The notes under the pieces: generated by a model
What the model saw: only the letters and a program-made list of their open reading frames with translations
What the model was told of the DNA's origin: nothing
Database searches by the model: none
DNA from: Verrucomicrobiota bacterium
GTDB lineage: Bacteria; Verrucomicrobiota; Verrucomicrobiia; Verrucomicrobiales; DEV007
Assembly (NCBI GenBank): GCA_018970725.1
Contig: JAGWVU010000022.1
Span: forward strand, 1 to 64,000
Reading direction: 5' to 3'
Length of the DNA: 64,000 nucleotides
Made by a program: the position numbers and the translations under genes
Shown here: in pieces, positions 35,023 to 46,840 of the stretch
Numbering within the stretch: position 1 is the stretch's first letter
How the letters are laid out: each line of letters starts with the position of its first letter

Positions 35023-38000
35023 ATGTTTCGCCAAAGGTCCGCCGCCTTTTCAATCCCCGCCCGGGTCCTCCTCGTGGCCTCCGCCGTGGCCGCGTCTCTG
35101 GCGGAGCCTCTTGCCGGGGCGGAAGGAGAGCCGCCGCGCATCGCCTTCACCCATCTCACTGCCCGGCAGGGGCTGGCGCAAGGGCCGCTGGTGCGGATCC
35201 TGCAGGACCGCCAGGGCCGCATTGTCTTTGCCCAGCGCTACGGTCTGGCCCGCTTCGACGGCTTTGCGGTGCGCCCGGTTCTGGATGTAAGGCAGATCTG
35301 GCCGGACGCCTCGCATCGGTCGATCCGGGCCTTCGCCGAGACCGCGGACGGGAACGGCTACTGGATCGGGACGGACGCGGGCCTGGTGCTGCATTCCCTC
35401 TCCTCCGGACCCTCGGTCGTTTTCCGGCATGATCCGGCCCGGCCCCTCTCGATTCCTTCGGGAGCGGTCACCGCCCTGTTGCAGGAGGGAGCGGACTCCC
35501 TGTGGATCGGGATGGAATCGGGACTGTGCCGGCTCGAGGTGCGTTCCGGGACCTTGTCCCAAGTCCGGGTGGATCCGCTGAACCGGGAGATCATTCAGGA
35601 TCTGGCCCATGCGCCCGGCTCCATGGCCACGCTCTGGGTCGGCACCCGGGGCAGCGGGCTCTTCGGCCTTCTGCCGGACGGGCGGTGGCAGGATGCCTGG
35701 CGGCGCCATGCCGACGTGACCTCCATCTGCCCGGGCACCGATCCCGGAACCGGGGAGAAACTGCTTTGGGTGGGCACCCGTGGAGAGGGTCTCTTCCGTT
35801 GTGACGGGACCGGTCGTGCCGTCCGCCAATATCTGCCCCGCAACAGCACCGGCATGCCCGGCCGTGATGTTCTGTCCTTGGATGCGGACAGCGGAAACCT
35901 TCTCTGGGTGGGGACCCCGGCGGGGATTTCCCGGTTCGACCCGGGGAGCGAGACCTGGTTCACCTACGGGCACGACGGCGATTCCGGGGAGAGTCCGGGC
36001 CGCGGCATGGTGACCACGATTTTCGAAGACCGGCGCAAGACGCTCTGGATTGGGACGGACGAGGGGGAAGTGAGCCACCACCGGCTCGATCTCTTCCGGT
36101 TCCCCCACCACCGGGCGGCCGAGCGGGGTTCGTGCGCCCTGAGCAACGACGCGGTCCATGGAATGAGTGAGGGAAGCGGCGGGCAGGTCTGGCTCGCCAC
36201 GGAGAACGGGTTGAATCGTTTCGATCCCCGGGCGGAAGTCTTCGAGTCCTGGACGCATCGTCCCGGGGAGCCGGGGAGCCTCCCGGACGCCCACCTCCTC
36301 TGCGTGCACGAGGACCGTGAGGGAAGGGTCTGGGTGGGGACGCGCGGGGCCGGTCTGGCCCGGATGGACTTTGGTGAAGGCAAATTCAAACGGTTTGTCC
36401 AAGACGCCCGCACAACGGGCAGCCTCCCGGGGGACACGGTCGCCGCCTTCCTCGAAGACCGGAGGGGCACGCTCTGGATCAGTTTGGACGGGGTCGGTCT
36501 GGTGCGGTTCGATGAGGAGGGCCAGCGCTTCATCCCGGTGGACGGGCCGGAAAACGGGCCGCGCTTCGTCAACCAATTGGCCGAGGATCCCGCAGGACGG
36601 ATTTGGGCGGGTTGCTCGAGCGGTCTTTGGCGGTTGGACCCGTTGGAAAACCGTCTGATTCATTATCTGGATCTTCCGGGCGCCCGGCAGAAACTTCCGC
36701 AGGAACACGTCACGGCCCTCGCCGTCAGTCCGGAGGGAACGCTTTGGGTCGGAACCCTGGGAGGCGGCCTGACGCTTCATGATGCGGAATCCGGCACCAT
36801 GACGCCGTTCCACGAAGCCATGCCGGGCCGCACGGCGCACGAGATCCACGCCATTCTCGTAGACAACCCGGGCAACGTCTGGCTCTCCACCCGGGATGGA
36901 CTGGCCATCCTCCAACCCAAGGACAAACTTTTCCGCCAGCTCTCCCTCCGGGACGGGGTCCAAGCCACCCGTTTCCACTCCGGAGCCGCCCTCAAACTTT
37001 ACGACGGCACCCTCCTCTTCGGGGGGCCGGACGGGTTTGACCGGATCGATCCGCGGCGCCTCCCGGGCTTCCCCGAACCGGCGCGCCCGTTGCTCACCGG
37101 GTTGGAACTCGAGGAAGAAATGGTGACCCCTTCTCCGGAGGGCATTCTGCCCAGGCCATTGCCGGCGATGGGCAACCTTCCCCTGCGGATGCCCTTCGAC
37201 CGCAAAATGCGCCTCGGCCTGCACTTCGGCACGCTGGACTACGCCAGCCTGGATCAGTATCAGTTCGAATACCGGATGACCGGGTTCGATGAATCCTGGC
37301 AAAAAGCCCGGGAAGATCGCATCGCCCTCTACCGGAGCCTCGCCCCGGGCCAGTACTCCTTCAACGTGCGCGCTTCAAGGGACAGCCAGCACTGGCAGGA
37401 ACTTTCCTACCCCCTCCGGATCCGGATCGATCCTCCCTGGCACCGCACCAAATGGGCGGTCACCACTTTCATCCTGCTCATCCTCGCCGCGATCTACACG
37501 ACCGCCTACGTCTACTTCCGGATCCGCGAAACCCGGGAACGGATCCAACGGGAACATCTGGAAAACGAAAGGAACCGGGCCGAGGCGGCCTTGGCCCGCC
37601 AGGTGCAGCACGCCATGTTGCTCGAGCGGACCAGTGCGGAATTCCGCCGCAGCCTCGACAGCACCCACGTCTTCCAGTCCGCCCTCCGCCGCCTCGGAGA
37701 GCACTTCAAGATCCGGCGTTGCTTCCTCGCCGCCTTGAGCGACGGCCAGGACGATCTCGAGATCCTCGCCCAGTTCGAATCACCGGACCTCGCCCCGCTT
37801 CACTTCGAAAAACTCTCCCGGAAACATCCGGTCGTGAGCCGGATTCTCGCGTTCGAGGGGGCCGTCGATCTCCTCCCGAACCGCAACCCGGCGCGCCCTT
37901 CCGGCGTCGTCTCCCCGCCGCCTCAGGAGGAGATGCCCTGCCTCTGGGGCATCCGCACCGCGTATCTGGAGAAATGCAACGGCATCATCGTTCTCGACCG

Positions 38001-39312
38001 GGACCAATCGACCGGCGCCTGGACCCGGGAGGAACTGAGTCTCCTCGATTCCCTCGCCGCCCAGTTGGGCATCGCCGTCGCTCAGTTCCTTCTCAGCCAG
38101 AAAGAAGCGAGGCAGGCTCTTGAACTCCAGGAGGCGAGGGTCGCCGCGGACGTCGCCAACCAAGCGAAGAGCGATTTCCTCGCCAAGATGACCCACGAAC
38201 TGCGGACCCCGCTCAATTCCATCATCGGCTTCTCCGAGGTCATGAAAACGGAACCGGGCCTGAACGAATCCCACCTCAAACACCTCAACATCATCACCAG
38301 CAGCGGGGAACACCTCCTCGGCGTCATCAACGATATCCTCGAGGTCTCCAAGATCGAGGAGGGCAAAGCCGAACTGGTTCCCGTGCCTTTCGACCTGAAA
38401 GAACTGCTCCAATCCGTCCATGCCATCATGTCGACGGCCTCGGACAAAAAGGGCATCAAACTCGAACTGCAACTGGAGGGCGATCTCCCGCAACAGGTCG
38501 AAACGGACAAACAAAAGCTGCGCCAGATCCTGATCAATCTGTTGAGCAACGCCATCAAGTTCACCTCCCGCGGCTCCGTGACCTTGCACGTCACCGCCCG
38601 GCCGGGCCTCCTCAACATCCGGGTCACCGATACCGGCGAGGGAATCGCCGATGACGAATTGCAAAAGCTTTTCGGTCGCTTCGTCCAAACCCAGAGCGGC
38701 AGGAATTCCCTCCAAGGCAGCGGGCTGGGCCTCTCCATCGTCCAAGGCTTCACCCAGCTTTTCGGAGGAACCATCAAGGTCAGCAGCCAGGTCGGCGTCG
38801 GCACCACGTTCGCCTTGGAACTCCCCATCAAGGCCCTCGCCAATTCCCCCATCATCACCTTCGCCCGCCCAGCCTCCCGGGAAGTCGTGGGTCTGGCCCA
38901 AGGTCATCGCCCCGTCCGCATCCTTGTCGTGGAGGACAACGAGATGAACCGCCTCCTCATGCGCAAATTCCTCGTCAAAGCCGACTTCGAGATGGCCGAG
39001 GCGGAAAATGGAAAGGTCGCGGTCGATACCTGGCAGGAATTCCAGCCGGATCTCATCTTCATGGACGAAAGCATGCCCGTGATGTGCGGGCTGGACGCGA
39101 CCCGGGCCATCGCCACCATGGCAGGCGACGCGATGCCCCCCATCGTTTCCCTGACCGCCTTTGCCCTGGAAGACCAGCGCCGGGCCGCCCTCGAGGCCGG
39201 ATGCGTCGACTTCCTCGCGAAACCTTTCAAGCGCGAGGAGTTGTTCGAGGTGATCCACAAGCATTGCGAGGTGACCTACACCTACAAGGACCAGATCCCA
39301 CAGGCAGCCTGA
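35023..39312 (+). CDS. Hybrid two-component sensor kinase with periplasmic propellers (Reg_prop/Y_Y_Y type)
   Basis: A 1429-residue protein. After a signal anchor ([18 protein letters not shown]), residues ~50-700 hold two-component-regulator propeller repeats with LWVGT/LWIGT cores. A Y_Y_Y domain follows ([15 protein letters not shown]), then a membrane helix (~810-832), a GAF-like domain (~880-1020), a HisKA helix with the phospho-His in [16 protein letters not shown] (His ~1058), an HATPase ([31 protein letters not shown]) and a receiver domain ([12 protein letters not shown]; phospho-Asp D1348 in FMDESMPVM; Lys in FLAKPF). There is no DNA-binding output domain, so the signal must go to a separate phosphotransfer or response regulator. 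Such kinases usually sense polysaccharide fragments. It lies between two pilin-type genes. Confidence 0.92.
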
Positions 39313-39408
39313 CCGCCTCCCGCACGCAGGACCTCACAGCCGGGACGGCTGTGTCCCGGCTCCGGGAGGCTCTCTCCATCATCTGCGGTGCCGAGGTCCG
39401 CCCGGGCC

Positions 39409-39600
39409 GAAGCCCTAGGTTTGGGGCACGGATGAGTCACGGATAAAACGGATGGCACGGAGAGGGACCCAAAGCAGAGCATGTCTCTTCCCATCCGTGT
39501 CATCCCGCCCCTCCGTGTTTCATCCGTGCCCCAAAAAGCCCTCTTCCACGTCATCCGCCGACGCGATCCTCCAGGGGACAAGAGAACCTTCATCCCGCTT
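39409..39600. repeat. Direct repeat unit B, copy 1
   Basis: A 192-base unit, ~95% identical by eye to 39664-39857. It begins GAAGCCCTAGGTTTGGGGCACGG and ends near CATCCCGCTT, with inverted-repeat arms around the middle. Confidence 0.85.
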
Positions 39601-39663
39601 GACCGTTAGGTGATCAAAGCACCAATTCAGGCCCAAAGGGTCGGGACAGGATCAGCCCGGGGC

Positions 39664-39857
39664 GAAGCCCTAGGTTTGGGGGCACGGATGAATCACGGAT
39701 AAAACGGATGGCACGGAGAGGGACCCAAAGCAGAGCATGTCTCTTCCCATCCGTGTCATCCTACCCCTCCGTGTTTCATCCGTGCCCCAAAAAGCCCTCT
39801 TCCGCGTCATCCGCCGACGCGATCCTCCAGGGGACAAGAGAACCCATCATCCCGCTT
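39664..39857. repeat. Direct repeat unit B, copy 2
   Basis: Second copy of the ~193-base unit at 39409-39600. Differences include one extra G (GGGGGCACGG), a changed base in the CACGGATGAATCACGG part and TACC for CGCC near CCCCTCCGTG. Confidence 0.85.
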
Positions 39858-40188
39858 CACGGCGCACTTCTCCCGCGGCACGGTGGCAGGCGGGAGGAGG
39901 ATCGCTTTGCAGGCGGGACGCACGCAGGACCTCACAGCCGGGACGGCTGTGTCCCGGCTGGGAGGCTCTCTCCATCATCTGCGGCGCCGAGGTCCGCCCG
40001 GGACGGCACAAGATAGCCCGGGGCGAAGGGAGCTTGACGCGACCGCAGCCCCGGGGACCCGGACCACAAGAGCCCCGCCCTGAAAGATGCGGGACAAAGG
40101 TGTGATCCGCCAATGGGCTGCGCGTGATTTTCAGTCCGGACTTCAGCCCCCCTCCTGACAAATAGCGCCAGAAAACAAAAAGGAGCGT

Positions 40189-40216
40189 TTGACACAGCTT
40201 TGCCAAGGCTTATATT
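40189..40216 (+). promoter_or_regulatory. Sigma-70-like promoter of the giant prepilin gene
   Basis: TTGACA (40189-40194), a 16-base spacer, then TATATT (40211-40216). It lies at the edge of an AT-rich stretch, 34 bases before ATG 40250. This is the best promoter match in the window. There is no clear Shine-Dalgarno before the ATG. Confidence 0.65.
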
Positions 40217-40249
40217 TTTTGTAATTATCGTATTTTTTACCCCTTCTTG

Positions 40250-43200
40250 ATGCGTCCCCTCCACCAAAGCCGCGCGTTTTCGCTGCTGGAAATCCTGATC
40301 ACCGTCACGATCATCGGACTTCTTGCCGCCGTGGCTCTCTTCCGGCATCAGAATTCCTTCGAGGACGTCCGCGTCGCGAAGCTGGAGTCGGACATCGCCA
40401 CGATCAATTCCGCGATCAAGACTTACGGGGCCAACGGAGGGTCCATGGCGGGCATTTATGCGCCCCAGGACGTTCTCGACAAAATGAAGACCTCGCTGTC
40501 GGCCAGCGACGAAGCGAGCATGGTCGGCATCGGTGGTTCCATGATCGACCCGCGACTCGCCGTGATCCTTTCCGATGCCCTGCCGGACGGCGCCCCCCGG
40601 GCGATCTGGAATTCGGTGGCCACGCGCTTCGACCTCGCCACGACGGGAACCGGGGTCAGTCAATTCATCCTCGATGCCGCGAAGGGCCGGGCGTCGTATG
40701 GGACGGAGACGCGGGAAAAGGCCACCTTCTCCTACAACACGAACAACGGATGGGTCTGGAACTACAATGACACGGCCCCTCTCCCCCGGCCGAAACCGTC
40801 CCTGGTCTCGGTCAGCGGCCTGACCGGAGGCGGCACCAGTCCGGGGGATACCTCAACGACTCCCTGGAGCGACCCGGTGATCTCGAATTTGCTGCCGCCC
40901 ACCTTCGCTCTCGACGGAGGGAGTTACCGCCCTTCCCGGTTCCCCTTGGAGGTGCAGCTTAACAACCCCAATCCGTCCACCTCGAGCCAGATTCTGGTGT
41001 CGGTCGGTGGATCGGACTTTGTGCGCTACACCGCCCCTTTGAGACTGGCGGCGGACACCACGGTGCTGGCGTTCGCCAGCGGGGATCCCTCGCTCTGGCT
41101 GCCCAGCGCCACCGTGGGCCAAACCTACCTCGTGGCCGCCCCGGAACAGCTCGGCACCCCCGTGATCAGCCCCTCGAGCCCGCAGTTCCAGTGGGATACC
41201 GCGGAAACGATCACCGTTTCGATCTCCAACCCGAACAGCAGCGAACACTCGTCGCTGCAATACAAGATCGATGACAGCAACTGGTCGACCTACTCCGGCT
41301 CCCTCACGCTTGATTTCAGTTCTAACTCGGACGGTGCGGTGGTCTCCGCCCGGGCGATTTCGTTGAGCGAGGACTACTCGGAAAGTCAGGTGAGCACCTC
41401 ATCGATCGCCCCGGCGCCGCCGCAACAAACGCTACTCGCCCCGGTGATCACCACCAGTGACCCGAGATACATCGTCGGAGCCGTGGAAACCATCACCGTG
41501 TCCATCTCAAACCCCAATGAGGGCGGTGCGGCGCTGGACTATCGTCTTGCTGGCGGCAGTTGGCAGGCCTACTCCGGCACCTTCAGCTTGCACCGGTCCA
41601 CCTATCCGCTGGGAGTCACCATCGAGGCCCGCTGCCGCGCGATCTCGCGGGCCTATCTCGACAGCGTGTCCTCCAGCGTCCGGCTTGAAACCTCCCCGAT
41701 TGATCTGCGTCCCCCCAACATCATCCCCACCGCCGCCAACTTCATTGTGGGAGCCGTGGAAACGGTCAACGTAACGGTGACCAACCCGAACCCCGCGGCC
41801 GCCGGTTCCCTCTTGGATTACAGAATCAACGGCGGTGCATGGGTGTCCTACACCTCCGCCCTGTCCTTCACCCGGACCGCCTACAGCTCCGGCCTGACCA
41901 TTGCGGCCCGCGCCCGGACCACTTCGGCCGCCTACCTCACCAGTCCGGACGCTTCGTTCCAGATCGGCGTCACCGGTGTCCCGCTGATCCCGCCCGGGAT
42001 CAGTCCAAGCGCCCCCAACTTCGTGGCGGAACGGGTGGAAACGGTGACCATCAACCTGACCAACCAGAATCCCGGCGTCACCACGGTGGTCTACCGTCTC
42101 AACGGAGGGGCGTGGCAAACCTATGCCGGAGCCTTCACGGTGACCCGTTCCGCCTATCCCTCCGGCGTGCAGGTGGAAGCCCGGGTCAACGGCACGACCA
42201 CCGCGGCCGCCACCAGTTCGATCTCCGCCCTGACCATCGGATTGGCTCCCCTGCCCTTGCGCCCCCCCGCGCTCCTCGCGGGAGCGGCCTCCTTCATCGC
42301 GGGCATCTCGGACGTCATCTCCGTTTCCGTCGCCGATTCCAATCCCCAGGGCGGCGCCACCGAATACCGCATCAACGGGGCGGCCTGGCAGGCCTACAGC
42401 GCGCCGTTCTCCGTCTCCCTTACGGATTTTCCTTCCGGGGTGATGCTCGAGGCCAGATCCCGGGCCATTTCACCGGCTTACGCGGACAGCACCAACGACC
42501 TGTTGATGATCGGTCTCACCCTGGCCCAACTGCGCCGTCCCATCATCACCACTTCTTCCGCCAGCTTGGTGGCCGGCACCACCGAAAGCATCTCCGTCTC
42601 CATCGCCAACCCGAACGCCGCCGCCGCGGGTCTGCTCGAATACCGGCTCGACGCCGGAGCCTGGCAGGCCTACGGGAGTGCTTTCGCCATCACCCGGTCC
42701 GCCTATCCCTCCGGCGTGACGATCGAGGCGCGGGTCAGCGCCCTGAGTTTCGCGCTCCTCGACAGTGATCTTGACACCGCGGTCATCAGCCTCACCCCGG
42801 CCCGGCTCACGGCTCCCACCGTGACCAGCAGTGCCCCGGCCTTCATCGCCGGATTCGTCGAAAGCGCCACGATCACCATCGGCGCCACGGATGCCTCCAG
42901 CGAAGTCCTGGATTACCGCCTCAACGGCCAGTCCTGGCAGACGTATTCCAGCCCCTTCCCGGTGACCCGGACAAGTTACCCCACCGGGGTCACGATCGAG
43001 GCCCGGAGCCGATCCTCCTCCCCGGCCTTGGACCCGAGCGAGATCGCCTCCACAACGGTTGCAATCAACCCGATCCAACTCCGGCTTCCGGCCATCACGC
43101 GAAGCGCCAACTTCTTCCAGACCGCGACCGATACCGTCACCATCACCCTGACCAATCCGAACCCGTCCGGCTCGCTGGTGGATTACCGTCTCAACAGCGG

Positions 43201-46200
43201 GGCCTGGCAAACCTACAGCACCCCGTTCACGGTCTCCCGGAGCAATTTCTCCGCCGGGGTCACCATCGAGGCCCGGGCCCGCTCCATTTCCGCCGCCTTC
43301 CTCAGCAGCGGCTTCATCTCGGCCACCGTGGGAATCGTTGCGAACCAGCTCCAGCCACCGTTCATCACGCCCAGCGCCCCGAATTTCGTGCCGGGCTACC
43401 AAGACTCGATTTCCGTCCAGCTCATCAATCCGAATGCTTCCGGGTCCGCTCTCGACTACCGCATCAACGGCGGCGACTGGCAGGCCTATTCCTCCGACCT
43501 CACCTTCACGCGGGCCAATTACCCCTCCGGATTGACGATTGAGGCTCGCGCCCGAGCCTTGACCGATGCCTTCCTCACCAGTGGGAACGCCATCCTCGCC
43601 CTCGGCGTCACCCCGGTCCAGCTCCGGGCTCCCTCCATTGCCAGCAGCGCTCCCGCCTTCAGTGCGGGCACCAGCGATACCGTGACGGTGACCTTGTCGA
43701 ACCCCAACGCCCAGGCCTCGGTTCTTGACTACCGGTTGAACGGCGGGTCCTGGCTGTCTTACGCCGCCGCCCTCCCGCTGACCCTGAGCGCCTATCCCAA
43801 CGGCGTCACCATCGAAGCCCGCTCGCGTTCGACCGATGCCGCGTTCGCCACCAGCACCCTGGCCTCGGCCTTCATCGGGGTGGCCCCCGTGCGGCTGAGA
43901 ACGCCCTCCATTTCCACCACCGCCTCCAACTTCCTCGCCGGGGCGAGCGAGAGTGTCACGGTGACGATCGACAATTCCAACACCGCCGGTTTTGTCCTCG
44001 AGTACCGTCTCGGCACCGGGGCCTGGCTCGCCTACACCGCCCCGTTCGTGGTCACGCAGCAGAGCTACCAGTCGGGCATCACGATCGAGTCGCGGGCCCG
44101 GGCCTTGACCGCCGCCTACCTCGACAGCAACATCGCCTTCGCCGCGATCGGTCGCACCCAGGTCCTGCTCCGCCGCCCCTCCATTGTCCCCAGCAGCGCC
44201 ACCTTCCTTCCCGGAACGACCGATTCCGTGACGATCACCATCACCAACCCCAACCCGACCGGTTCCGTGGTGGACTACCGGATCAACAATGGAGCCTGGT
44301 TGGTCTACTCCGCGCCGTTCACCGTGACGCGCACCTCCTTCCCAAACGGAGTGCCCATCGAGGCCCGTGCCCGCGCCCTCTCGAGCGCCTACGCCACCAG
44401 CGAGTCCTCAACCTACACGGTGGGTCTGACCCCGATCCAGCTGCTGCCCCCCACCATCCGTCCCAGTGCGTCCGACTTCATCCCCGGCTCGGTGGACACC
44501 CTGACCGTGACCCTTGTCAATCCCAATCCGACCGGCTCGGTCACCCACTACCGCATCAACGGAGGCGGGTGGGCCACCTACACCACGCCCTTCGTGGTGA
44601 GGCGCGCCAGTTATCCCACCGGCCTTTCGGTGGAGACGCGGGCTTGGAACACTCAATCGGCCTTCGCCCCCAGCTACATTGTCACCGCCAACTTCGGCGT
44701 GGCCGTGGTCCAGCTGCTGCCCCCGATCATTACACCGAGCGCCCCCCGGTTCGTGGTCGGCATCACGGAGACCGTGACCATCAGCCTCACCAACCCGAAT
44801 CCCACCGGTTCCTCCCTTCAATACCGGCTCAGCAGCGGGGCCTGGGTGAACTACACGGGGCCGTTCAAAGTCACCCGCAGCTTTTACCCACAGGGTGTCA
44901 CCGTGGAGTCCCGGGCCCTTGCGGCCACCGCGGCCTACCTGACCAGCAACAATGCGCTCACCTCGATCGGGCTGACCACACTGACCCTGCAGACCCCCAC
45001 CCTCACGCCCAGCGCCCGCAACTTCCGGATCGGATCGGTCGAGAGTATCACGGTCACCATCACCAACCCCAATCCGCAAGGCGTCTCCAGCCTGCAATAC
45101 CGGATCAACAGCGGAGGCTGGCTGGCCTACACCGGCGCCGTCACCTTCACCCGGGCGGCCTATCCCTCCGGCCTCTCCGTCAGCGCCCGGGCCGTCGCCG
45201 CCACCTCCACCTCCGGCTACGGAACCAGTCTCACCGGGGTCACCACCATCGGCCTGACCCAAGTCCAGTTGCTCCCCCCTTACCTAACCAAGAGCATTCC
45301 TAACTTCATCGCCGGCTCCGGGGAAACCGTCACCATCACCCTGAGCAATCCGAACGGCGCCGGATCCGCCCTCCAATACCGGCTCGCCGGGGGCGGTTGG
45401 ACAACCTACACCGTCCCATTCAGCCTCACCCGGTCCCGTTATCCCAAGGGCGTCCTCGTCGAGGCCCAGGCCAGGGCAACCGTCGTCGCCTACCGGAGCA
45501 GCACCATCGCCTCCAGCAACGTCGGCATCGGCACGGTGCAGTTGCAGATTCCCGTGATCACCGCCGCGGCTCCGAATTTCATGGCCGGCACCACAGAGGC
45601 GATCACCGTCACCGTGAGCAATCCGAACCCCTCCGGGTCCTCCATCCTGCAATACCGGCTCAACGGCAGCGCCTGGCGGAATTATGCCGGGGCCTTCTCC
45701 GTCAACCGGTCCACCTACCCGACCGGGTTGACCATCGAAGCCCAGGCCCTCACCTCCTCCACCGTCTACGTCACCAGCGCCGCCGCTTCCACGAACATCG
45801 GCCTCACCACCGTCCGGCTCGCCGCCCCCACCATCACCCGGAGCGCAGGCAACTTCATGGCGGGCACGGTCGAAACCATCTCCATCAGGTTGACCAACCC
45901 GAACCCCACGGGCACCTCTGTGACCGAATACCGCCTCAACGGGGGATCCTGGCTCACCTACACGGCCGCCTTCAATCTCACCCGGTCCGCCTATCCCTCC
46001 GGCGTCACGGTCGATGCCCGGGCCCGGAGCAGCTCGGTCGCCTACACCGACAGCACCACGGCCACGTCCACCATCGGCGTCACCCTGATCCAGCTGCAGA
46101 CCCCGATGCTCCGCCGGAGTTCGCCGAACTTCATCCCGACCCAGATGGAATCGATCACCGTGACCATCCTCAACCCGAACGCCTCGACCGTTTCGGCCTT

Positions 46201-46840
46201 GGATTACCGGATCAACGACGGTTCCTGGGTGGCCTACTCCGCCCCGTTCCCCCTGACCCGTGCGACCTATCCCAACGGTTGCTCGATCCAGGCCCGGGCC
46301 CGCAGCATCTCTCCGGGGCATAGCGACAGCTCCACCACTTCGGGATCGATCGGTCTCAAGCTGAACGCCACCAAGACCACGGTGACCTTCACTTCGATGG
46401 CCTCGACCGCCGGTTACCTCAACGAGGCCTACATCTACGTAGATGGAGATGCCTACTACCTCGGCAATAGCGACATGGGCGCGGGCTTCGCGGTCAACAT
46501 CGATGTCTATCTGGAACCGGGCGTCACCAACGTCTTCGATCTCAGCATCGACACCTACATGCGCAGCGGCGGGCGGTTCGTCTCCGGAGCCTTGCGAGGG
46601 CTCGACACCCGCACGGGCTCCCTCTTCAGCCTGATTTCCAATGACGCCTCCTTCCGCGGCCAAACGACGAACTCGGCCAAGATCAAGGACCTCAGTTACC
46701 AGAGCAATCTCAACATGATCGTCGGGTATGAGGACTTGATCATCGCGAAGCAGAATCCGGACTGGGACTACGATGACTTCATGTTCCGGCTCACGTCGAA
46801 CCAAGCCTTCAACTTCACGTTCGGCGGGTACGCCCGCTGA
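40250..46840 (+). CDS. Giant prepilin-type protein with 18 chitobiase-like repeats and DUF4114-like C-terminus
   Basis: The 2196-residue protein begins MRPLHQSRAFSLLEILITVT, with a 9-residue basic leader, cleavage expected before F10, and Glu at +5 followed by a hydrophobic helix: a class III/type IV prepilin N-terminus, though with Ala instead of Gly at -1. A pseudopilin-like region follows to about 200 (KLESDIATINSAIKTYGANGG; MIDPRLAVILSDALPD). Two divergent and then 18 well-conserved repeats of ~91 residues fill ~218-2038; the consensus is P-x-I-x-S-A-x-F-x-G...NPNP-GS--DYR-NGG-W--Y---F-VTRS-YP-GV-IEARARA, resembling the C-terminal chitobiase/beta-hexosaminidase domain. The last ~155 residues (LNEAYIYVDGD...EDLIIAKQNPDWDYDDFMFRL) look like DUF4114. 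Assembly would need a secretion machine encoded elsewhere. Role is unknown; a fibre or carbohydrate-binding adhesin is my inference. Confidence 0.88.
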   Translation: MRPLHQSRAFSLLEILITVTIIGLLAAVALFRHQNSFEDVRVAKLESDIATINSAIKTYGANGGSMAGIYAPQDVLDKMKTSLSASDEASMVGIGGSMIDPRLAVILSDALPDGAPRAIWNSVATRFDLATTGTGVSQFILDAAKGRASYGTETREKATFSYNTNNGWVWNYNDTAPLPRPKPSLVSVSGLTGGGTSPGDTSTTPWSDPVISNLLPPTFALDGGSYRPSRFPLEVQLNNPNPSTSSQILVSVGGSDFVRYTAPLRLAADTTVLAFASGDPSLWLPSATVGQTYLVAAPEQLGTPVISPSSPQFQWDTAETITVSISNPNSSEHSSLQYKIDDSNWSTYSGSLTLDFSSNSDGAVVSARAISLSEDYSESQVSTSSIAPAPPQQTLLAPVITTSDPRYIVGAVETITVSISNPNEGGAALDYRLAGGSWQAYSGTFSLHRSTYPLGVTIEARCRAISRAYLDSVSSSVRLETSPIDLRPPNIIPTAANFIVGAVETVNVTVTNPNPAAAGSLLDYRINGGAWVSYTSALSFTRTAYSSGLTIAARARTTSAAYLTSPDASFQIGVTGVPLIPPGISPSAPNFVAERVETVTINLTNQNPGVTTVVYRLNGGAWQTYAGAFTVTRSAYPSGVQVEARVNGTTTAAATSSISALTIGLAPLPLRPPALLAGAASFIAGISDVISVSVADSNPQGGATEYRINGAAWQAYSAPFSVSLTDFPSGVMLEARSRAISPAYADSTNDLLMIGLTLAQLRRPIITTSSASLVAGTTESISVSIANPNAAAAGLLEYRLDAGAWQAYGSAFAITRSAYPSGVTIEARVSALSFALLDSDLDTAVISLTPARLTAPTVTSSAPAFIAGFVESATITIGATDASSEVLDYRLNGQSWQTYSSPFPVTRTSYPTGVTIEARSRSSSPALDPSEIASTTVAINPIQLRLPAITRSANFFQTATDTVTITLTNPNPSGSLVDYRLNSGAWQTYSTPFTVSRSNFSAGVTIEARARSISAAFLSSGFISATVGIVANQLQPPFITPSAPNFVPGYQDSISVQLINPNASGSALDYRINGGDWQAYSSDLTFTRANYPSGLTIEARARALTDAFLTSGNAILALGVTPVQLRAPSIASSAPAFSAGTSDTVTVTLSNPNAQASVLDYRLNGGSWLSYAAALPLTLSAYPNGVTIEARSRSTDAAFATSTLASAFIGVAPVRLRTPSISTTASNFLAGASESVTVTIDNSNTAGFVLEYRLGTGAWLAYTAPFVVTQQSYQSGITIESRARALTAAYLDSNIAFAAIGRTQVLLRRPSIVPSSATFLPGTTDSVTITITNPNPTGSVVDYRINNGAWLVYSAPFTVTRTSFPNGVPIEARARALSSAYATSESSTYTVGLTPIQLLPPTIRPSASDFIPGSVDTLTVTLVNPNPTGSVTHYRINGGGWATYTTPFVVRRASYPTGLSVETRAWNTQSAFAPSYIVTANFGVAVVQLLPPIITPSAPRFVVGITETVTISLTNPNPTGSSLQYRLSSGAWVNYTGPFKVTRSFYPQGVTVESRALAATAAYLTSNNALTSIGLTTLTLQTPTLTPSARNFRIGSVESITVTITNPNPQGVSSLQYRINSGGWLAYTGAVTFTRAAYPSGLSVSARAVAATSTSGYGTSLTGVTTIGLTQVQLLPPYLTKSIPNFIAGSGETVTITLSNPNGAGSALQYRLAGGGWTTYTVPFSLTRSRYPKGVLVEAQARATVVAYRSSTIASSNVGIGTVQLQIPVITAAAPNFMAGTTEAITVTVSNPNPSGSSILQYRLNGSAWRNYAGAFSVNRSTYPTGLTIEAQALTSSTVYVTSAAASTNIGLTTVRLAAPTITRSAGNFMAGTVETISIRLTNPNPTGTSVTEYRLNGGSWLTYTAAFNLTRSAYPSGVTVDARARSSSVAYTDSTTATSTIGVTLIQLQTPMLRRSSPNFIPTQMESITVTILNPNASTVSALDYRINDGSWVAYSAPFPLTRATYPNGCSIQARARSISPGHSDSSTTSGSIGLKLNATKTTVTFTSMASTAGYLNEAYIYVDGDAYYLGNSDMGAGFAVNIDVYLEPGVTNVFDLSIDTYMRSGGRFVSGALRGLDTRTGSLFSLISNDASFRGQTTNSAKIKDLSYQSNLNMIVGYEDLIIAKQNPDWDYDDFMFRLTSNQAFNFTFGGYAR
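41441..46364 (+). repeat. 18 tandem ~273-bp coding repeats
   Basis: The in-frame tandem units encode the chitobiase-like domains of the giant prepilin protein. Units are easily aligned at protein level but diverged in DNA, so the array is old rather than freshly amplified. Confidence 0.85.

Follow-up and report, generated by a model that had tools for sequence, protein, structure and literature searches.

What becomes of a protein that begins as a prepilin and runs on through a long array of repeats? This question is raised by a gene in a 64,000-nucleotide stretch of Verrucomicrobiota DNA (positions 1 to 64,000 of contig JAGWVU010000022.1), here called the window. The initial annotation had proposed that a prepilin leader and N-methylation helix, a repeat region and a DUF4114-like end lie in one polypeptide, and this is borne out by a single unbroken open reading frame (ORF) of 2,196 codons on the forward strand (40250-46840, stop codon included; start ATG at 40250, alternative TTG at 40247) and by matches to the prepilin models PF07963 and TIGR02532. 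In order, the product consists of a leader, a hydrophobic helix that starts with FSLLE, a globular stretch, a linker, 19 regular repeats preceded by a degenerate one, and a tail of ~160 residues. We argue below that this protein, which we refer to as the giant pilin, is probably a modular type IV pilin that displays a long-reach adhesin; far from being unique, it stands at the long end of a family with 52 members.

Head, repeats and tail of the giant pilin

The leader MRPLHQSRA (40250-40276, forward strand, as for all features below) is predicted to be cleaved after Ala9 in the context SRA/FSLLE, which makes the glutamate of FSLLE residue +5. When the genome was scanned, PF07963 reached 27.8 bits; on the whole protein it reached 21.3 (cut-off 21.2), and TIGR02532 scored 19.1 bits (cut-off 16.3). 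Helix alpha-1 (residues 10-61; 40277-40432), supported by profile matches of the head, holds the N-methylation segment, which is by far the strongest hydrophobic segment of the protein, with a hydropathy of up to 2.6 versus at most 1.8 elsewhere, inside the repeats; the hydropathy of the protein revealed no C-terminal anchor. The globular part of the pilin module (residues 62-175; 40433-40774) was delimited from an alignment of 32 heads and an AlphaFold model, and ends in a conserved WVWxY motif, here WVWNYND (residue 174). N53, G64, D100, F127, W168 and W170 are invariant in this alignment. It is followed by a linker (residues 176-204; 40775-40861) in which Pro, Ser, Thr and Gly abound and which is predicted to be disordered. 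In the model of residues 1-480, which was built from 8 sequences and has a mean predicted local distance difference test score (pLDDT) of 75.8, the head contains one long helix (residues 12-61), two short helices, four strands at residues 103-141 (moderate confidence) and a disordered stretch at residues 158-210 (pLDDT about 30); its predicted template modelling score of 0.39 makes the relative orientation of the parts unreliable. When the family head profile was compared with all PDB sequences, the only matches below E 0.01 were geopilin, PilE1, GspG, PilA and other type IV pilins. Judged by these alignments and models, the head is a pilin module and more than a leader.

Because the residue at position -1 is Ala rather than Gly, the initial annotation had doubted that the leader is processed. 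Across the 52 family members described below, however, this residue is Ala in 26, Gly in 25 and Thr in one, with Glu at +5 in 48, and Ala also occupies this position in other prepilins of the same genome, one of them in a cluster of five (L084) and another isolated (L004). An older review gives Gly except in archaea (PMC4471445), while a 2023 review of type 4 filaments states that prepilin leaders end in Gly or Ala (PMC10191384; likewise PMC3244431). Together, the tally, the same-genome prepilins and the literature remove Ala at -1 as an obstacle to processing.

The repeat region opens with a degenerate immunoglobulin (Ig)-like domain (residues 205-295; 40862-41134), recognized from its family-wide conservation directly after the pilin module and from the model, and continues with 19 regular Ig-like repeats of the OmpL47 type (residues 296-2035; 41135-46354), giving 20 Ig-like domains in total. 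The regular units are 90-93 residues long (~91), share the anchor YRxNGGxWxxY (residues 338 to 1986) and have a mean pairwise identity of 42% (range 23-55%). Of the 18 chitobiase-like repeats of ~91 residues that had been described initially, the length thus holds and the count does not; the term chitobiase is only loosely right, and the profile that scores is NF047446 of NCBIfam (OmpL47-type; 170.7 bits summed over nine stretches, cut-off 40). The chitobiase models PF13290 and PF03174 gave no match over cut-off with the whole protein or with three stretches from the array, and we therefore rejected chitobiase domains for the giant pilin; among 45 relatives, PF13290 was matched by four and Fn3_assoc by five. 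The modelled repeats form a string of Ig-like domains with pLDDT mostly above 85, and Foldseek matched them at 8-16% identity to Ig/Fn3 strings, among which are SiiE and the grappling-hook protein GhpA of Aureispira; a repeat profile found no match among PDB sequences. Because the repeats are so dissimilar and no DNA-level tandem array was detectable, assembly collapse is unlikely, and the array, to judge from its sequence, is old and not prone to collapse. As a separate observation, the same genome has another OmpL47-type match (L015, G000:C87:144716-144835; 34 bits) in a 2,195-codon open frame without a prepilin match.

The C-terminal tail (residues 2036-2196; 46355-46837) was delimited by weak similarity to PF13448 and by conservation between orthologues, and it carries a conserved acidic motif, GxED...DxDYxD, which may bind calcium. 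Its match to DUF4114 (PF13448) covers positions 30-85 of 85 and reaches 19.2-23.9 bits, below the cut-off of 27. Its sequence marks the tail as related to DUF4114 but distinct from it.

Two collinear orthologues lie in metagenome-assembled genomes (MAGs) of the same genus. One (G002/L047, L018; QQNE01000008.1) has 2,238 codons and is 72% identical; the other (G001/L048, L019; CAMCXS010000037.1) is 57% identical and is cut by a contig end, and a match to its missing C-terminus was found on another contig. Compared with L047, the giant pilin has a non-synonymous divergence (dN) of 0.19 and a synonymous divergence (dS) of 0.86 (dN/dS about 0.22), and the junction between head and repeats is under constraint equal to that of the rest of the protein. 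By part, identity to L047 is 77% in the pilin module, 70% in the repeats and 87% in the tail, making the tail the best conserved part.

A family of pilins with exchangeable tails

We searched 96 genomes, the window's own and 95 relatives, and obtained matches in 62. Proteins with a complete pilin module were collected with profiles and number 52 (53 rows, one of which, L013, is a fragment of the gene already represented by L010). The members range from 369 to 2,838 residues and have 0-21 Ig-like domains by profile count, with some of them cut by contig ends. Nearly all belong to Verrucomicrobiales. Within this order the complete module was seen in families f1, f3 and f4, and outside it in a single further family of the same class (G563); among the matches listed from the rest of the phylum, coverage is confined to roughly the first 60-85 positions, which is what any prepilin would give. 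Neither Pfam nor NCBIfam has a model that spans the entire pilin module, and the literature searched contained no prepilin-headed repeat proteins of Verrucomicrobiota, with the reservation that single members may stand in the supplementary data of a 2021 survey of modular pilins. The head therefore defines a pilin family that has no existing model and is apparently undescribed.

What follows the head varies. In 45 members examined with curated models, the tail is choice-of-anchor K in 25, von Willebrand factor A (vWA) in seven and a DUF5122/delta-60 propeller in four; all seven vWA tails have an intact DxSxS motif. By our own profiles, DUF4114-like tails are present in five of the 52. We calculated a maximum-likelihood tree of the 52 heads and assigned five tail labels to it, of which the label 'other' is mixed and holds most propeller tails. 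The labels change 14 times on this tree, compared with a least possible number of 4 and a mean of 24 for shuffled labels; the DUF4114-like label needs three changes, of which the starred branches of the tree force two. These counts are approximate because of the mixed label, many weak forks and the very long branch of L033. The nearest heads to that of the giant pilin are two paralogues in its own genome, L011 (vWA tail, 667 residues) and L010 (Ig-like domains only, 604 residues), with support 99/91. Because the giant pilin groups with these two, a single genome contains three heads that are related but lead to different ends.

One member in particular bears on how repeats and tail divide the work. 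L058 (429 residues) joins the head through a proline-rich linker to a DUF4114-like tail and has no repeats, and it is mainly for this reason that we take the repeats for a shaft and look for the working end in the tail. The repeats also look like a spacer because they are less conserved than the tail and are modelled as Ig-like strings that match adhesin shafts. They are thus best read as a shaft of adjustable length with the tail as the binding part, and the suggestion that they bind carbohydrate is not supported.

Two further loci of the family deserve mention in their own right. A still longer relative (L117:292-8805, forward strand; 2,838 codons) combines the pilin module with DUF5122 beta-propeller repeats and has no Ig-like domains. 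At L053, a row of four family members (JAHEJT010000019.1, 7893-16538) includes at least two kinds of tail, which suggests local duplication and tail exchange.

A candidate mechanism and its rivals

The genome (4.9 Mb, 96.5% complete) encodes parts of the machinery that a pilin would need. It has one prepilin peptidase with both the N-terminal and the catalytic domain, 11 T2SSE-type ATPase matches (six as large as PilB/GspE and five roughly as large as PilT), a T2SSF platform protein adjoining two of the ATPases, five secretins, two of which match GspD-like N0 models, and 17 prepilins. The earlier idea of a prepilin-headed adhesin arm on a machine of the type IV pilus or type II secretion type is plausible in this light. 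We note that in the peptidase (L071:1363-2757, reverse strand) a long insert, longer than is usual for PilD, separates the N-terminal domain (residues 92-175) from the GxGD part that was matched (residues 381-419). It is also of interest that G293, G296, G298, G310, G604 and other genomes outside the class have 200-280 (up to 282) loose prepilin-head candidates each, compared with roughly 10-60 in most others; in such candidate-rich genomes, the prepilin head may be a signal by which proteins are sorted in large numbers.

In the reading that we consider most likely, the giant pilin works as follows. The leader would target the protein to Sec and the pilin module would insert in the inner membrane, where prepilin peptidase would cut after Ala9. 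Alpha-1 would then pack into a type IV filament with the protein as a minor subunit, and the filament machine would export the shaft via a secretin, with the flexible linker directing the shaft off the filament. An Ig-like domain is about 4 nm long, and 20 of them would give a reach of roughly 80 nm. The tail would in this way be held far from the filament and contact a surface, a polymer or a cell, and PilT-type retraction could pull on it.

Several points weigh against this scheme. We know of no precedent for the passage of so long a folded shaft through a pilus secretin, and processing, assembly and exposure of the giant pilin are predictions from its sequence. The gene is an orphan, with a hybrid sensor kinase and an APP1-type phosphatase as neighbours and no adjoining pilus genes, and the genome has several machines, none of which is singled out as the carrier. 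That the tail would bind something is argued by analogy with the vWA-tailed relatives: comparison with PDB sequences gave no credible match and no solved relative, and structure prediction, which had been proposed at the outset for both a repeat and the C-terminus, succeeded for the repeats and yielded for the tail a model with pLDDT 34 (from three sequences only) that we do not interpret.

The strongest rival, which we nevertheless regard as unlikely, is that the head is a sorting or anchoring signal only, so that the protein would be an envelope stalk fastened through the N-terminal helix, either to the inner membrane or within a short pseudopilus, and would never enter a long pilus. It would accord with the location of the giant gene outside any pilus operon and with the name of the commonest family tail, choice-of-anchor K, which NCBIfam bestows for its occurrence with alternative surface anchors; a THxN PEP-CTERM model is matched by four members and a model for exosortase-dependent surface proteins by one, and the numbers of loose prepilin candidates in some genomes of the phylum go far beyond the needs of filaments. 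However, a bare anchor needs neither a pilin module conserved over its whole length (~170 residues) nor the Glu at +5 that nearly all members retain, and the presence of PilT-type ATPases in the genome also speaks against this reading. Less probable still, and in our estimation improbable, is a variant type II secretion pseudopilin whose C-terminal part would itself be the cargo to be presented or expelled, the arm being released to the medium. The GspD-like secretins would suit such a protein, as would a weak score of the head with GspG (TIGR01710; 22.7 bits over residues 8-60), yet this score is far below the equivalog cut-off of 88.85 and matches just 53 of 134 model positions (1-53), and the alignment has no conserved cleavage site at the junction of head and arm. 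It is very improbable that we are dealing with an ordinary Sec-secreted or inner-membrane protein whose leader resembles that of a prepilin by chance: PF07963 is marginal on the whole protein, but relatives share the leader, the Glu at +5 and the pilin region, and a possible AxA site for signal peptidase I (AVA) is not kept in the congener L019/L048. Finally, we found no point in favour of a frameshift or assembly error near 40.85 kb that would have fused a repeat protein to a short prepilin gene, and this is ruled out for practical purposes by the collinear orthologues in two other MAGs, by purifying selection that is uniform across the junction and by a domain order that the other family members share.

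Gene surroundings and relation to known systems

Upstream of the gene, a promoter-like element TTGACA-16-TATATT (40189-40216) lies 33 bases before the ATG and agrees with the consensus at 11 of 12 positions, where 0.1 sites are expected in shuffled sequence; TTGAC/TATA-like elements are similarly placed upstream of both orthologues and of the paralogue L011. The hybrid sensor kinase directly upstream (35023-39312, forward strand; Reg_prop propeller, Y_Y_Y, GAF, HisKA, HATPase and receiver domains) is a possible regulator. An orthologue (72%) lies ~97 bases upstream of the giant gene in L047, yet not upstream in L048, and for this reason we do not count the kinase as part of the pilin system. 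The intergenic region at 39321-40005 contains two 188-nucleotide copies of a repeat (93% identical; at 39401 and 39657), each with an imperfect inverted repeat of 42-43 nucleotides, and a second pair of direct repeats flanks both copies; because the corresponding gap in the congener is only ~100 bases long, this looks like an inserted dispersed repeat element.

In the testable parts of the definition given by Raynaud et al. (2021; PMC8179133), the giant pilin is a modular type IV pilin, and we file it there. Specifically, it has a class III signal (IPR012902: PF07963/TIGR02532), a leader ending in the permitted Gly or Ala with Glu at +5, a globular module after alpha-1 and additional domains foreign to pili (the OmpL47-type repeats and, below its cut-off, the DUF4114-like tail), in a genome with prepilin peptidase, extension ATPase, platform protein and secretin. 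The most extreme modular pilin of that survey has 860 residues and 12 copies of one motif (PMC8179133), whereas the giant pilin has 2,196 residues and 20 Ig-like domains. Streptococcus sanguinis PilB is a pilin whose vWA module has been proven to act as an adhesin (PMC8179133); PilB shares with the giant pilin the class III signal and a pilin module to which a foreign module is grafted via a linker, and it shares vWA tails with seven members of the present family, but here a shaft of variable length stands between pilin and tail, the pilin module forms a separate family and the tails come from a different set (choice-of-anchor K, DUF4114-like). PilC/PilY1 tip adhesins are likewise large, displayed on pili and equipped with exchangeable modules (PMC8179133, PMC10191384); they differ in that they are not pilins and dock on minor pilins by a beta-propeller, while in the giant protein the pilin is covalently included.

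The remaining likenesses concern the shaft. The repeats score well above cut-off with NF047446, although the name of that family implies a beta-barrel while the modelled repeats are Ig-like sandwiches, and the NF047446 family as such is without a pilin head. The shafts of SiiE from Salmonella and GhpA from Aureispira are also strings of Ig-like domains and both were among the Foldseek matches, but neither protein has a pilin head and sequence identity is 11-14%. Both are exported by other routes than pilins.

Known modular pilins are small and have one or few grafted modules. Here, in contrast, a whole family combines a common head, a shaft of 0-20 domains and a repertoire of tails, and what is new compared with the pilins of the 2021 survey is the size, the variable shaft and the pilin family without a model. 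The swapping of end domains within this family suggests that long-reaching adhesins are shown on type IV pili. Tentatively, and with less confidence than we place in the modular-pilin reading itself, we propose that this Verrucomicrobiales pilin family is a docking platform, in which swapped tails and shafts of 0 to about 20 Ig-like domains would set the reach and the ligand of the pilus, and of which the giant pilin would be the long extreme, its ~80-nm shaft passing through the secretin and being pulled when the pilus retracts. The three sister genes in one genome, with different tails on related heads, are a natural experiment, and the family allows two questions to be tested: what size of folded load can be exported by a type IV filament machine with its secretin, and whether the length of the shaft sets the reach of a pilus adhesin.

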